A stretch of DNA of 47,652 nt from Bacteroidota bacterium. GTDB lineage: Bacteria > Bacteroidota > Bacteroidia > Palsa-948. Position 1 is the stretch's first letter, and each line of letters opens with the position of its first letter. The stretch is from NCBI GenBank assembly GCA_003164895.1, contig PLUL01000075.1:1-47652 (forward strand), written 5' to 3'. The position numbers and the translations under genes were made by a program. The notes beneath the pieces are model-generated. The model was not told where the DNA came from. It did not search any database and saw only the letters and a list, made by a program, of their open reading frames with translations. Below are positions 23,467-45,486 of this stretch, piece by piece.

Positions 23467-24078
23467 ATGGAAACGAAAACAAACAACACCTACGAAAAAG
23501 CTGAGAGGATCAAAAAGAACATTACCAGCTTTGCTGAAAAATCAAAAGAAACTATCCGCGAACTGATTGGAGCCACTTCAAAACAAATGGAGAACGCAAT
23601 GGACAGCAATTCGAAAATGTTTAACTCCATGAAAAAACAATTCGACAGCCAACATGTGGATGGAAAAGTTGCCGATACCGTTAAACATACATTTGTGAAA
23701 TCACTTGAACTGGCAGAAGATACTTATGATGCAATTGTAAATTCTTATACCCGCCAGATGAAACACACGGTGGATTTCAACACGCGACTTGTAGATGCAG
23801 TAAAGGAATCAAATCCTAAAAACGCTGACAAGTTTTTGGAATTGATCCAGGAAAACTTTGAAAGCTCTCAGGAGTTAAACAATAAAAACACCAAGGAGAT
23901 TTTGGAGTTTTACAATAAGCACACCAACCTTACACTTAACTTCAACAAAACATTTTCTGATAATGTAAATGCGCAAGTGGAAGCTATGTTGCAGATGCAA
24001 AGCAAAAGTTTTGACAAATTCACAAATTGGGCAACTGATTGGTGGAAACAAGGAACTACTGAAAAAGAAAGAGTTTAA
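23467..24078 (+). CDS. Phasin-like protein, copy 1
   Basis: A 203-residue soluble, highly helical, Lys/Asn-rich protein without signal peptide. Amphipathic stretches such as AERIKKNITSFAEKSKETI and LELIQENFESSQELNNKNTK fit a phasin, the small proteins that coat polyhydroxyalkanoate granules. It is clearly paralogous to the protein at 24886-25536: both have LNFNK-type then FNKTF/FNKSF, then a MQSKS or LQSKG word and a Trp-rich end (NWATDWWKQG here, NWVSNWWQKG there). The assignment rests on composition plus the PHA synthase and reductase genes downstream. It leads the cluster after a 363-bp leader. Confidence 0.72.
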   Translation: METKTNNTYEKAERIKKNITSFAEKSKETIRELIGATSKQMENAMDSNSKMFNSMKKQFDSQHVDGKVADTVKHTFVKSLELAEDTYDAIVNSYTRQMKHTVDFNTRLVDAVKESNPKNADKFLELIQENFESSQELNNKNTKEILEFYNKHTNLTLNFNKTFSDNVNAQVEAMLQMQSKSFDKFTNWATDWWKQGTTEKERV

Positions 24079-24140
24079 TAAATCAAACACAGAATCAAGA
24101 TAAAAAAAATATAAATTAATTTAACAATCAAAAAACAAAA

Positions 24141-24824
24141 ATGGAAACACAATTCGCAGAAACAGCAGAACGAGTTCAGGATGCAATCAAACAAACTTCC
24201 GAACTTTTTACAAAAACCACCGCATCGTTGATGGAATCTTACAACAAGCAACTCAACACCGGTTATGAATTTTACAAGAAGTTGGTTGAAACCGCTCAGC
24301 ACGATGGAAAAACAAAATTTGCTGACATGATTAAAGAAAGCACAGCTTCTTATCAAAAAGCAATCAACAGCACGTTGAACATGTCGAAAGAAATTACAGA
24401 GAAAACATTTTCTGTTTTTACCGAAAACGAATGGTCTCCGCTTTCTAAAAAAAGTGCTGATGCCATTCTGAATATTTTCACCAAGCAAGCAGAACAAAGC
24501 CGTGATTTCGGAACACAGTTCTTAAACTCTTTGAAAATTGAAGATGTACTTTCATCTGAAACATTCAAAAAACAATCGGCTCGATTTAACGAACTAATGC
24601 GCGACAGCATCAAAAGTTCAGAAACCGCTATCAAAGAATTGATTGCAGCGTATAACGAACAGTCAACTTTCACTCAGGAAGCGACTAAAAAATTAATGAA
24701 TAACATTCAACAGCAAACTGACGCTCTTGCAAAAACACACGCAAAGTTTACTGAAGAACTGATGCATACTTTAAACGGAAAGAAAGCATCAACTGAGACA
24801 AAACAAACAAACAAAAGAAAATAA
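24141..24824 (+). CDS. Phasin-like protein, copy 2 (divergent)
   Basis: A 227-residue helical protein with heptad-like patterns, for example AERVQDAIKQTSELFTKTTA, and LMESYNKQLNTGYEFYKKLV. It has no signal peptide or membrane segment, and its C-terminus is Lys/Thr-rich (KASTETKQTNKRK). Length, composition and location match phasins, but it lacks the Trp-rich C-terminal motif of its two neighbours. It lies 62 nt after copy 1 and 61 nt before copy 3. Granule binding is inferred from context; another PHA-associated helical protein is possible. Confidence 0.68.
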   Translation: METQFAETAERVQDAIKQTSELFTKTTASLMESYNKQLNTGYEFYKKLVETAQHDGKTKFADMIKESTASYQKAINSTLNMSKEITEKTFSVFTENEWSPLSKKSADAILNIFTKQAEQSRDFGTQFLNSLKIEDVLSSETFKKQSARFNELMRDSIKSSETAIKELIAAYNEQSTFTQEATKKLMNNIQQQTDALAKTHAKFTEELMHTLNGKKASTETKQTNKRK

Positions 24825-24870
24825 GGAATAAGTTATAGGCATAAGGAAAAACTCCTTATGCCTTATTCCT
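24824..24870. repeat. Strong hairpin between phasin-like genes 2 and 3
   Basis: AGGCATAAGGA (24837-24847) pairs perfectly with TCCTTATGCCT (24853-24863) around an AAAAC loop. Outer arms AGGAATA (24824-24830) and TATTCCT (24864-24870) extend it across an asymmetric 6-nt bulge. No T-tract follows, so it is not a standard terminator. It may stabilise or process the mRNA, or be a dispersed palindromic repeat. It begins at the last base of gene 2 and ends 15 nt before the next ATG. Confidence 0.75.
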
Positions 24871-24885
24871 AAATCTCATTTAGTA

Positions 24886-25536
24886 ATGGCAACAAAAACA
24901 AAAAAAGGTTCTGCTCCGAAGGAATCTACACATGCAAAAGAAGCAAAGTATGCTTTCTCGGAACAAATTGAAATGCTCAAAGAGCAATTAGACGGAGCAA
25001 CTAAAAATGCAAAGGAGCACATTCGCACCATCATCGCTTCATGCAACGGCAGCTATGAAAAAGCAATTGATGCAAACAAAAAATATGTTGGCGAGTTGCG
25101 TGAGCAATTAAAAGGTCAGCATATTGACACCGCTTTCTTTGATGAAATCACCAACGCATTTGCCAGTTCCCTTGAAGTATCGGACGATGTGATTGATACC
25201 ATCATTGATTCGCACATGCGCAGAACAAACCGCATCGTGGAGTATCACAGAAAAAATCTGGAAGTGCTTAGTAAAGCATATTCTACCGATAAAGTGAGCT
25301 TTGAGGATTTCCTGAAATTATTTCAGAAAAACTTTGAAGAGAGCATTGAACATTCCACACAGGATTTGAAAAAAGTGGTGGACATGTACAACAGGCACAT
25401 GAATCTATCGGTAAACTTTAATAAAAGTTTTGCCAAAAGCATCAATTCGCAAATTGATACCATGGTAAAACTTCAGTCAAAAGGTTTAGACGCTTACAAC
25501 AACTGGGTTTCTAACTGGTGGCAAAAAGGAAAATAA
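24886..25536 (+). CDS. Phasin-like protein, copy 3
   Basis: A 216-residue helical protein. The first 25 residues are Lys/Ala-rich (KTKKGSAPKESTHAKEAK), then amphipathic helices run to a Trp-rich end, AYNNWVSNWWQKGK. It aligns along most of its length with copy 1 at 23467: an FLKLFQKNFEESIEHS / FLELIQENFESSQELN match, then MYNRHMNLSVNFNKSF / FYNKHTNLTLNFNKTF. This is a tandem paralogue. It is followed by a strong terminator and then by the PHA synthase gene, consistent with a granule-coat role. Confidence 0.72.
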   Translation: MATKTKKGSAPKESTHAKEAKYAFSEQIEMLKEQLDGATKNAKEHIRTIIASCNGSYEKAIDANKKYVGELREQLKGQHIDTAFFDEITNAFASSLEVSDDVIDTIIDSHMRRTNRIVEYHRKNLEVLSKAYSTDKVSFEDFLKLFQKNFEESIEHSTQDLKKVVDMYNRHMNLSVNFNKSFAKSINSQIDTMVKLQSKGLDAYNNWVSNWWQKGK

Positions 25537-25571
25537 AAAGAATTATTTCCTTATGATAACAAAATAAAACA

Positions 25572-25604
25572 AAAAACTCTGATAAATCAACTATCAGAGT
25601 TTTT
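25572..25604 (+). terminator. Intrinsic terminator between phasin and PHA synthase genes
   Basis: AAAAACTCTGATA (25572-25584) pairs perfectly with TATCAGAGTTTTT (25592-25604) around a 7-nt loop, continuing into a T-rich tail (to 25610). It lies 35 nt after the phasin 3 stop and 45 nt before the synthase ATG. It would make the phasin message more abundant than the synthase message, unless the synthase has its own promoter. Confidence 0.9.
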
Positions 25605-25648
25605 TGTTTTCTGTCCGAAGATATTTTTCGGAATAAAACTTTCATACT

Positions 25649-27409
25649 ATGAACAACGAAGAAAAAAAAGCAAGCGACAAGACATCGGAATTCTTAAAAG
25701 AAATGGCGGAAGCCGGTCAGAAAATGACAAAAGCATACATGGAAAGTTTGCCGGGGCTGATTGATTCAACCAAAGGAATTGCAGAAACATGGAACGCTTT
25801 CAGCAAGAGCATTGCTTCTAATCCTGATAAATCGGTACCGGATATTCAGAATAATTATTTTGATTTTTATAAAAAACAAATGGAGTTGTGGCAGCAAATC
25901 AACGTTCACATCAAAGAAGGAAAAACTCCTATGCCACCCAATGGCGACAAGCGATTTAAAGCTCCTGAGTGGAATGAAGCGCCATATTATTTTTATTTCA
26001 TCAAGCAAAGTTATATTATGGCTTCTGAATTGATAAATAATATTGTTGCACAATCGGATATTGACGAAAAAACAAAAAAGAAACTTAAATTTTACACACA
26101 GCTTTTTATTGACACTTTGTCTCCAGCAAATTTTATTGCCACCAATCCCGAAGTGATAAAATTAGCGCAGCAAACAAACGGAGAAAGTTTAAAGAAAGGA
26201 TTTTCAAATCTTCTCAACGATATTAAACTTGGAAGAATCAGCCAAACGGATTTTTCTGCTTTTGAAGTAGGAAGAAATCTTGCCATCACTCCCGGAAGTG
26301 TAATTTTTGAAAATGAAATTCTGCAACTCATCCAATATAAACCGACTACTAAAAAAGTAAATACAATTCCGTTACTGATTGTTCCGCCATTTATCAATCG
26401 CTATTATATTTTGGATTTAGAACAGCACAACTCGTTTGCAAAATTTGCTGTGGAACAGGGTAATACTACGTTTATGATTTCGTGGAAAGTTCCTAAAGGC
26501 GAAATGGGGAAATTAAGTTTTGATGATTATATTCAAAAAGGAATCATGGATACCATCGAAGTGGTTCGTGAAATCTCAGGAGAACAAAAAATAAATGCAC
26601 TCGGTTATTGCATCGGCGGAACTTTGCTCGGCACAACGGCTGCGATTTTTGCTTCTAAAAAAACAAATGTTCTCAATTCGCTTTCTTTCCTTGCTTCGAT
26701 GCACGACTTTTCTGATTTCGGCGATATGAGCGCGATGCTTGATATGCAGACAGTTGAAAAATTAGAAAAAGAAATTGGCAATGGTGTACTTAATGGAAAT
26801 GATATGGGTGGTGCTTTTGCTATGATTCGAAGTAACGATATGATCTGGAGTTATGTGGTAAATAATTATTTAAAAGGTAATTCTCCTGCGCCAATGTCGC
26901 TCATGTATTGGACAAATGACGGCACTAATCTGGCAGGAAACATGTATATGTATTACCTGAGAAATATGATTGTCGGAAATCAATTAAGTAAAAAGAATGG
27001 ATTGACAATTTGCAAAACTCCTGTTGATTTCAGCAAAATAAAAACTCCTTGTTTTATTTTAGGAACAGCGTTAGACCATATTTCTCCTTGCCATACCGTG
27101 TTTACGACTACCCGACTTGTTGGCGGAAAAGTGGATTTTGTTTTAGGAGAATCAGGTCATGTGAATGGTGTGGTAAATCCTCCTTCTGAAAATAATAAAT
27201 ACGGATATTTCATCAATGGAAAACTCGGAAAAGATTTAGCGCATTTTAAAGAAACAGCCGAGTATCATAAAGAAAGCTGGTGGATTAATTGGGCTAAATG
27301 GCTGAAACCGCAATCGGGAAAACAAATTAACGCGCCTGCAAAACCCGGAAATAAAAAATACAAAGTAATTGAAGCGGCACCCGGAAGATTTGTAAAAGAG
27401 CCGATGTAA
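25649..27409 (+). CDS. phaC: Polyhydroxyalkanoate synthase, class I type (PhaC)
   Basis: A 586-residue alpha/beta-hydrolase-fold enzyme that polymerises hydroxyacyl-CoA into polyester. The lipase-like box ALGYCIGGTLL carries the catalytic Cys at 321; the Asp is at 476 (GTALDHISP) and the His at 504 (GESGHVNGV), all close to the positions in class I synthases. The N-terminal region (about 1-200) is the PhaC_N type, with LGISPxx-like features less clear. The C-terminus, with ESWWINWAKWLKP then IEAAPGRFVKEP, is typical of class I. No PhaE or PhaR subunit is adjacent, which fits a single-subunit enzyme. Phasins lie upstream and a reductase downstream. PHA synthesis genes are uncommon in Bacteroidota. 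Confidence 0.95.
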   Translation: MNNEEKKASDKTSEFLKEMAEAGQKMTKAYMESLPGLIDSTKGIAETWNAFSKSIASNPDKSVPDIQNNYFDFYKKQMELWQQINVHIKEGKTPMPPNGDKRFKAPEWNEAPYYFYFIKQSYIMASELINNIVAQSDIDEKTKKKLKFYTQLFIDTLSPANFIATNPEVIKLAQQTNGESLKKGFSNLLNDIKLGRISQTDFSAFEVGRNLAITPGSVIFENEILQLIQYKPTTKKVNTIPLLIVPPFINRYYILDLEQHNSFAKFAVEQGNTTFMISWKVPKGEMGKLSFDDYIQKGIMDTIEVVREISGEQKINALGYCIGGTLLGTTAAIFASKKTNVLNSLSFLASMHDFSDFGDMSAMLDMQTVEKLEKEIGNGVLNGNDMGGAFAMIRSNDMIWSYVVNNYLKGNSPAPMSLMYWTNDGTNLAGNMYMYYLRNMIVGNQLSKKNGLTICKTPVDFSKIKTPCFILGTALDHISPCHTVFTTTRLVGGKVDFVLGESGHVNGVVNPPSENNKYGYFINGKLGKDLAHFKETAEYHKESWWINWAKWLKPQSGKQINAPAKPGNKKYKVIEAAPGRFVKEPM

Positions 27410-27484
27410 GAACATGCGGAATGTCATGATTTATGGTTAGTGATTTTGTTAATAGATTGATAGAATTGAATTCGTTTTAATATT

Positions 27485-27492
27485 TATTTTTG
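27485..27492 (+). promoter_or_regulatory. Candidate -7 element upstream of phaB
   Basis: TATTTTTG (27485-27492) fits TAnnTTTG, with a TTG at 27466-27468 giving a 16-bp spacer. The leader to the ATG at 27536 would be about 37 nt. It suggests phaB can be transcribed apart from phaC. Confidence 0.4.
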
Positions 27493-27535
27493 GTTTTTCT
27501 GAAAACACTTTTACGTTAAAAATCTCAGATAATTT

Positions 27536-28303
27536 ATGAGGGAAAAAAATAATAAAGTTGCGCTGGTTACCGGGGGTACTGGCGGAATGGGAACTGCTAT
27601 TTGTGAACGCTTGTATAAAGACGGATATTCGGTAGTTGCCAACTACCGGAATTTCACTACTGCAATGAAATGGCGCGAAATGGCAAAAAAATGGCGCGAT
27701 GACCAGTTGCAAATGGGTATTGATGTAAAAATTGTTCAAGGCGATGTTACTAATTATCAGTCTTCAACTATAATGATAAAAAAAATTGAAGACGAAGTAG
27801 GTCCTGTGGATGTGCTGGTGAACAATGTTGGTATTTCGCGTGATGCTACCATTAGAAAAATGACTCCCGAACAATGGTATGAAGTAATCAACACCAATTT
27901 GAACAGCGTTTTCATTTGCTCGCGATTGGTAATTAATCAAATGATAGAAAAAAAATGGGGACGTATCATTTGCATTTCATCTGTTAATGGACACAAAGGT
28001 TCTTTCGGCACAGCAAATTATTCCACTTCAAAAGCAGGTATGTATGGATTTGTTAAAACTGTTGCTGCAGAAGTTGTAAAATACGGCGTTACGGCAAATA
28101 CTATTTCTCCCGGATATACCGCCACTCCGCTTCTTACAGGAATTGCCCCTGAAGTAATGCAAAAAATTGTCGCTCAAATTCCATTAGGTCGTTTGGCAGA
28201 ACCGAGAGAAATTGCAGCTGCCGTTTCTTATCTCGCTTCCAATGATGCCGCCTTTATGACAGGTGCCGATATTTCTATTAATGGCGGGCAGTATATGTAT
28301 TAA
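27536..28303 (+). CDS. phaB: Acetoacetyl-CoA reductase (PhaB-like short-chain dehydrogenase)
   Basis: A 255-residue classical SDR. The nucleotide-binding loop is TGGTGGMG near the N-terminus, VNNVGISRD is the second signature, and the catalytic set is S149 (ISSVNG), Y162 and K166 (YSTSKAG). GISRDATIRKMT and ISSVNGHKGSFG are typical of PhaB and distinguish it from many FabG enzymes. PhaB reduces acetoacetyl-CoA to (R)-3-hydroxybutyryl-CoA with NADPH, the monomer used by PhaC. It lies 126 nt after phaC on the same strand. A FabG role is the main alternative. No beta-ketothiolase (phaA) is in the window, so acetoacetyl-CoA must come from elsewhere. Confidence 0.9.
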   Translation: MREKNNKVALVTGGTGGMGTAICERLYKDGYSVVANYRNFTTAMKWREMAKKWRDDQLQMGIDVKIVQGDVTNYQSSTIMIKKIEDEVGPVDVLVNNVGISRDATIRKMTPEQWYEVINTNLNSVFICSRLVINQMIEKKWGRIICISSVNGHKGSFGTANYSTSKAGMYGFVKTVAAEVVKYGVTANTISPGYTATPLLTGIAPEVMQKIVAQIPLGRLAEPREIAAAVSYLASNDAAFMTGADISINGGQYMY

Positions 28304-44637: not shown

Positions 44638-45486
44638 ATGGAAAATAAATTACCAAACCCAAGTCAAACTGTTTTTGAACAAATAAAAAGATTTGACGAA
44701 AAAAAAAATGAATACTGGACTGCACGGGATTTAAGCGCGGTGCTGGAATATTCTGAATACCGCCATTTCAAACCTGTAATTGACAAGGCAAAAGACGCTT
44801 GCAGAAACAGCGGTTACCAAGTTGCAGACCATTTCGAGGATATCCTCGGTATGGTTTCGATTGGCTCGGGAGCTGAAAGAGAAATTGACGATGTAAAGTT
44901 ATCCCGTTACGCCTGTTACCTGATAGTTCAAAATGCCGACCCGGGAAAAGAAATTGTGGCGTTGGGGCAAACTTATTTTGCAGTGCAAACCCGTTTGCAG
45001 GAAATACAACAGATGCAAACGTATCAGCAGCTGAAAACGGAAGAAGAAAAAAGAATGTTTCTGCGAAAAGAAATGTCGGAACACAACAAACAGTTAGCAG
45101 AAGCCGCCAAAGGCGCTGGAGTAATTGACCCGATTGATTACGCCATTTTTCAGAACCACGGCTACATGGGCTTGTATGGCGGAATTGATGCCAAAGGAAT
45201 TCACAAACGAAAAGGGTTGAAGAAAAGCGAAAACATTTTAGACCACATGGGAAGCACGGAATTAGCAGCCAATCTGTTTCGCGCCACTCAAACAGAAGAA
45301 AAATTGAAAAGAGAAAATATTAAAGGAAAACAGAAAGCCAATCAAACTCATTATGAAGTCGGCAAGAAAGTTCGCTAAACAATTCAGGAAATAGGCGGCA
45401 CAATGCCTGAGAATTTGCCGGTTGCCGATAGTATTAAAAAATTAGATAAAAAAGTTTCATCCAAAAAACTAAAAAAGAAAAAATAA
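44638..45486 (+). pseudogene. dinD: DinD-like DNA-damage-inducible protein, broken by an in-frame stop
   Basis: The first frame (44638-45378) gives 246 residues that match DinD almost throughout: EYSEYRHFKPVIDKAKDAC, LSRYACYLIVQNADPGK, HGYMGLYGGIDAKGIHKRKG and LDHMGSTELAANLFRATQTE. The frame stops at a TAA (45376-45378) right after VGKKVR. It then continues without shift to a second TAA at 45484-45486 as TIQEIGGTMPENLPVADSIK, the usual DinD C-terminus. One C-to-T change of a Gln codon explains the stop. Escherichia DinD is LexA-regulated and modulates RecA-driven strand exchange. The 246-residue form could still be active, so pseudogene status is likely, not certain. It lies inside the radA duplication. 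Confidence 0.85.

Follow-up and report, generated by a model that had tools for sequence, protein, structure and literature searches.

A putative polyhydroxyalkanoate storage locus in a Bacteroidota genome, with divergent phasin-like genes and a terminator-like hairpin before the synthase gene

The window analyzed in this study is a 47,652-nucleotide contig (PLUL01000075.1) from the assembly of an uncultured Bacteroidota bacterium (GCA_003164895.1). The polyhydroxyalkanoate (PHA) locus at 23467-28303 consists of five ORFs, all intact and all on the + strand. The first three encode helical phasin-like proteins, which are named PhsA (23467..24078, 203 aa), PhsB (24141..24824, 227 aa), and PhsC (24886..25536, 216 aa). 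PhsA and PhsC belong to one type (PhsA/C) and PhsB to another. The assignment of PhsA is based on the alignment with its relatives, which adjoin PhaC, that of PhsB on its hhalign match to PhsA/C, and that of PhsC on a Phasin_2 match below the cut-off and a predicted model. A terminator-like hairpin (25566..25610, + strand), proposed here as an attenuator, separates phsC from phaC (25649..27409), which encodes a class I-like PHA synthase of 586 aa. The acetoacetyl-CoA reductase gene phaB (27536..28303, 255 aa) comes last, and PhaB is placed after PhaC in relatives as well. The five intact ORFs confirm the sequence-only reading of this region as three helical phasin-like genes with phaC and phaB. 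The source genome, a 3.25 Mb draft assembled into 80 contigs with a listed completeness of 100% and contamination of 0.07%, has a single PhaC. Elsewhere in the window, an ORF at 44638-45378 resembles DNA-damage-inducible protein D (BRO-like N-terminus) by eye and adjoins membrane-protein genes.

The synthase matches PhaC_N (PF07167, 212 bits) and the PF00561 alpha/beta-hydrolase model (30.9 bits), both above the cut-off. Its score is 619.6 bits against the class I model TIGR01838 and 126.7 bits against the class III model. Because the class I score is 3 bits below the curated cut-off of 622.65, we use the term class I-like; the L152 synthase from the same clade exceeds that cut-off at 656.3 bits. 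The G-x-C-x-G-G motif is GYCIGG at 319, and Cys321, Asp476, and His504 are unchanged across all 50 aligned synthases, indicating a complete catalytic triad as had been claimed. A fused phasin module at the N-terminus of PhaC was considered and rejected, as its profile scores were not above those of reversed sequences.

In a tree of the 50 synthases, all 32 Phs-linked PhaCs are in one clade with a branch support of 98/100. Another five Bacteroidota PhaCs, which lack Phs genes, fall outside this clade, and the Phs-linked label requires only one change on the tree. The earlier reading had asked whether PhaC groups with the proteobacterial class I enzymes. The tree gives no support for such a grouping and favors the Bacteroidota clade instead, with a proteobacterial sample taken from plasmid records only and including several long branches. 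The identity of the window PhaC to this proteobacterial set is 29-45%. In another genome of the window's genus (G005), PhaC groups with the PhaC from another family (100/100), which suggests operon transfer inside Bacteroidota. The PhaC of locus L048 (8254-10080, genome G006) has about 22 extra residues inserted after position 338, and other ORFs occupy about 2.2 kb between the phs genes and phaC at that locus.

PhaB passes the acetoacetyl-CoA reductase model TIGR01829 (331.4 bits vs the cut-off of 302.1), in line with its earlier description as a PhaB-type reductase, and fails the narrower PhaB equivalog NF042966 (170.5 vs 436 bits). The absence of phaA was also noted correctly, since there is no thiolase gene within the locus. 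Acetoacetyl-CoA was expected to come from elsewhere, and four thiolases above the TIGR01930 cut-off are indeed encoded outside the locus in the source genome. The top model of one of the four is 3-oxoadipyl-CoA thiolase. The thiolase at C71:76110-77264 is a likely source of acetoacetyl-CoA because it is nearest to the acetyl-CoA acetyltransferases, though it is below the cut-off of every narrow model. MaoC-type hydratase domains are present in the source genome. Searches of the same genome found no PF06850 depolymerase, no match to the alpha/beta hydrolase that follows phaB in eight related loci, and no 3-hydroxybutyrate dehydrogenase above the cut-off; the last enzyme is above the cut-off in two relatives tested. 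One relative has a larger PHA cluster within 18 kb (L040, G012:C14), which contains two PhaC, two PhsA-type genes, PhaB, a thiolase-like gene, a short hydratase-like gene, and an alpha/beta hydrolase. In L041, L042, and L085, the protein after phaB resembles inorganic pyrophosphatase by eye (motif FRAHPWHGI..G).

PHA synthesis had been described as uncommon in Bacteroidota, and the distribution of PhaC agrees with this description. PhaC was present in 32 of 395 genomes and in 12 of 197 genera sampled from the class. Class I PhaC is already known in a few Bacteroidetes; of the 2,339 class I genomes in a 2021 survey, 12 were from Bacteroidetes (PMC8312272). PhsA/C-type genes were found in 29 of our 395 genomes. 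Both PhaC and PhsA/C were present in 26 genomes, PhaC alone in 6, Phs alone in 3, and neither in 360 (Fisher p 9e-32, a value that overstates independence among genomes that are kin). The three Phs-only genomes are 52-68% complete. Within the window's genus, two of seven genomes have neither PhaC nor Phs, and in a separate draw across the phylum the only match was in the window's own genome. A scan of 84,980 species, with one genome each, detects only loci bearing either of two short patterns and gave 36 loci, every one in Bacteroidota. Of 32 non-redundant loci drawn from many families, most have the order PhsB, PhsA/C, PhaC, PhaB. PhaC lying apart from the phs genes in relatives had been named as evidence against the proposal; the genes adjoin in most relatives that have both.

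Judged by profile models, the Phs sequences sit at the edge of known phasins. The Phasin_2 (PF09361) scores of PhsA, PhsB, and PhsC are 13.4, 11.8, and 20.6 bits, all below the gathering cut-off of 24.9, and PhsB scores 19 bits against the TIGR01841 phasin model, below the cut-off of 30.2. One PhsB-type relative exceeds the Phasin_2 cut-off with 30.0 bits. Phasin_2 is the most frequently matched family among the Phs relatives: at E ≤ 0.1 it matches 15 of 20 proteins of the PhsA/C type, and at E ≤ 0.001 it matches 8 of 24 of the PhsB type. Three of ten reversed sequences matched Phasin_2 at E up to 0.05, the best at 0.0067, but no match reached 0.001. Matches near E 0.01 were discarded as evidence because reversed sequences produce them too. 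The tie between the Phs proteins and Phasin_2 is weak and probably real. No non-phasin family was matched above the cut-off by PhsA, PhsB, or PhsC, so the profile searches did not turn up the outcome that had been set against a phasin-like identity.

The hhalign comparison of PhsA/C with PhsB gave E 2.4e-15 to 8.5e-18, whereas the best reversed control was 1.7e-4. On this alignment evidence, PhsA, PhsB, and PhsC belong to a single superfamily, whose members are amphipathic and helical. The comparison with betaproteobacterial PhaP gave nothing, with E 0.21 and 0.14 at the level of the reversed controls, using a PhaP profile of eight Pseudomonadota plasmid phasins (seven from betaproteobacteria and one from Pseudomonas) that includes PhaP2 of Cupriavidus necator. 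The suggestion that the Phs proteins could be a new family is reasonable, with one proviso. They form one superfamily without a detectable relation to PhaP, but have the weak tie to Phasin_2. The alignment of the PhsA/C type shows a conserved W...WW motif at the C-terminus. The only solved structures related to Phs by sequence were designed helical bundles and similar proteins. No Bacteroidota phasins were described in the open papers searched.

PhsA, PhsB, and PhsC fit the phasin profile in being small (203-227 aa), helical, amphipathic, and encoded beside phaC. Their mean hydrophobic moments are 0.34-0.38 vs 0.20-0.21 for shuffled sequences, each exceeding all 200 shuffles, and none has a membrane segment. 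According to a review, the four known Pfam phasin families are likewise amphipathic without a membrane segment (PMC5658603). The predicted model of PhsC has three long helices (mean pLDDT 73, pTM 0.46) and that of PhsB has five (mean pLDDT 69, pTM 0.60), with unreliable helix packing in both. We rejected a BAR-domain likeness of the low-pTM PhsC model, for which the top Foldseek matches were BAR domains with a best E of 0.017 and none at 0.001. Long coiled helices readily match one another in structure comparison. Sequence models alone do not decide whether the Phs proteins are phasins, and the case is carried by the genomic context.

The source genome has seven PhsA/C-type genes in all, five of them away from phaC. 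These five, together with an additional PhsB-type gene also distant from phaC, are at L034 (C60:39-1564), L035 8154-8795, L036 2024-2557 and 8445-9044, and L037 9399-10037. C60, a contig of 4.1 kb, carries a phsB-phsC pair with 78-80% identity to the window pair, and may be either a duplicate or a contig that strayed in from a related strain. Since PhsA, PhsB, and PhsC are helical, lie directly before phaC, and track phaC in evolution, they could instead be non-catalytic synthase partners comparable to PhaE (class III) or PhaR (class IV), and not a granule coat. We consider this improbable. PhaC is long and class I-like by the scores given above, and class I PHA synthases act without a PhaE/PhaR-like subunit. 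No PhaE/PhaR model was among the matches of the window Phs proteins or among the most-matched families of the 24 PhsB-type proteins, and seven PhsA/C-type genes for one PhaC suit a coat protein more than a subunit.

The dispersed copies also bear on another explanation, in which the Phs proteins are helical proteins with a general stress or chaperone-like role, encoded at the PHA locus among other places. For example, the PhsA/C-type gene of L037 is near universal-stress-like and Hsp20-like genes by inspection, and chaperone-like action has been reported for an Azotobacter phasin (PMC5658603). However, a tie to PhaC would not be expected of a general stress protein, and Phs without PhaC is rare, occurring in 3 of 363 PhaC-less genomes, all three incomplete. 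This explanation appears very unlikely, and we retain the Phs proteins as putative granule-coat proteins. A family of small lysine-rich proteins recurs on contigs bearing stand-alone PhsA/C-type genes (L035 7701-8072, L036 3932-4324, L077 8775-9185 and 11712-11966, and L079 1616-2065). As a guess by analogy with PhaM or the PhaF tail, these proteins might tie granules to DNA.

The recurrent terminator-like hairpin that separates the phasin genes from phaC is new here. In the window, it has 19 pairs and a T-rich 3' arm. With our own script, in which a hairpin was called when stronger than 20 shuffles, terminator-like hairpins were found in 15 of 26 gaps from the last phs gene to phaC vs 6 of 43 other operon gaps (p 3e-4, again among loci that are kin). 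Of these control gaps, those between phs genes had a hairpin in 4 of 28 cases, and those between phaC and phaB in 2 of 15. The median lengths of the three kinds of gap are 120, 58, and 80 bases, which somewhat favors the phs-phaC group and is partly corrected by the shuffles. We left out the stretch after phaB (hairpin in 9 of 29) as a control because ordinary terminators are expected there. The hairpin sequences are unrelated between lineages, and therefore it is the structure that recurs and not the sequence. The exact TAnnTTTG motif is absent upstream of phsA and of phaC.

The simplest reading of such a hairpin is partial termination, giving more phasin than synthase. The hairpin could keep the synthase below the phasin via partial read-through. 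Alternatively, it may separate two transcription units, with phaC transcribed from its own promoter and no attenuator. We regard this alternative as a serious one, with a probability somewhat under one half. A strong terminator-like hairpin alone usually ends a transcription unit, and the promoter could lie within phsC or overlap the hairpin. A few gaps are long enough for a promoter, as in L064 (89 nt) and L165 (271 nt). However, the distance from the hairpin to the phaC start is just 22-63 nt at most loci, including 36 nt in the window, leaving scant space for a promoter and a leader.

In the mechanism that we propose, thiolases encoded outside the locus would make acetoacetyl-CoA, PhaB would reduce it to (R)-3-hydroxybutyryl-CoA, and PhaC would polymerise this product via Cys321, helped by Asp476 and His504, as expected from its family and conserved residues. 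The paralogous amphipathic helical proteins PhsA, PhsB, and PhsC would coat the growing granule as phasins, a role suggested by their linkage to and co-occurrence with phaC, their helix character, and their weak similarity to Phasin_2. In the least certain step, the hairpin would probably stop most transcripts past the phasin genes. The coat protein would then be in excess, and the synthase would be made via read-through.

We consider it very probable from these sequence comparisons that the locus is a chromosomal PHA storage set, probably for polyhydroxybutyrate, with the phasin-like proteins as a putative granule coat and, less certainly, a synthase limited by the hairpin. The enzymes belong to well-known types, and the likely granule-coat proteins make up a divergent family detected here in Bacteroidota only. 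Overall, the observation is real and points to mostly ordinary storage biology with a divergent, lineage-specific family of putative phasins. More tentatively, and with slightly less than an even chance in our estimate, Phs would be a superfamily of phasins confined to some Bacteroidota, with up to seven PhsA/C copies per genome, inherited with its own PhaC clade, and a conserved transcription attenuator ahead of phaC would set the ratio of phasin to synthase. Groundwater, soil, and freshwater commonly harbor Bacteroidota, which are rarely counted as PHA producers. A Phs marker family would reveal where such Bacteroidota storage loci occur, and a phasin family unlike those in use may provide granule tags or biosurfactants. 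If the attenuator reading is true, the hairpin is a simple way for a cell to set coat protein against synthase.

The Phs proteins and the known phasin systems have both common and distinct features. The betaproteobacterial PhaP proteins (TIGR01841, including PhaP2 of C. necator) have no sequence relation to Phs detectable by hhalign, but share the proposed coat role and several paralogues per genome. Phasin_2 (PF09361) shares with PhsA, PhsB, and PhsC the size, helicity, amphipathic character, site beside phaC, and weak profile matches, whereas the window proteins are below its cut-off and the PhsA/C type has the C-terminal W...WW motif. In the class I operons of Pseudomonadota, such as those of Vibrio (L096) and Acinetobacter (L097), a phasin gene is directly upstream of phaC, as it is here, and the class I-type PhaC has catalytic residues identical to those of the window PhaC. 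Unlike these operons, the window locus has no thiolase and combines three paralogous phasin-like genes with a PhaC from a separate Bacteroidota clade.
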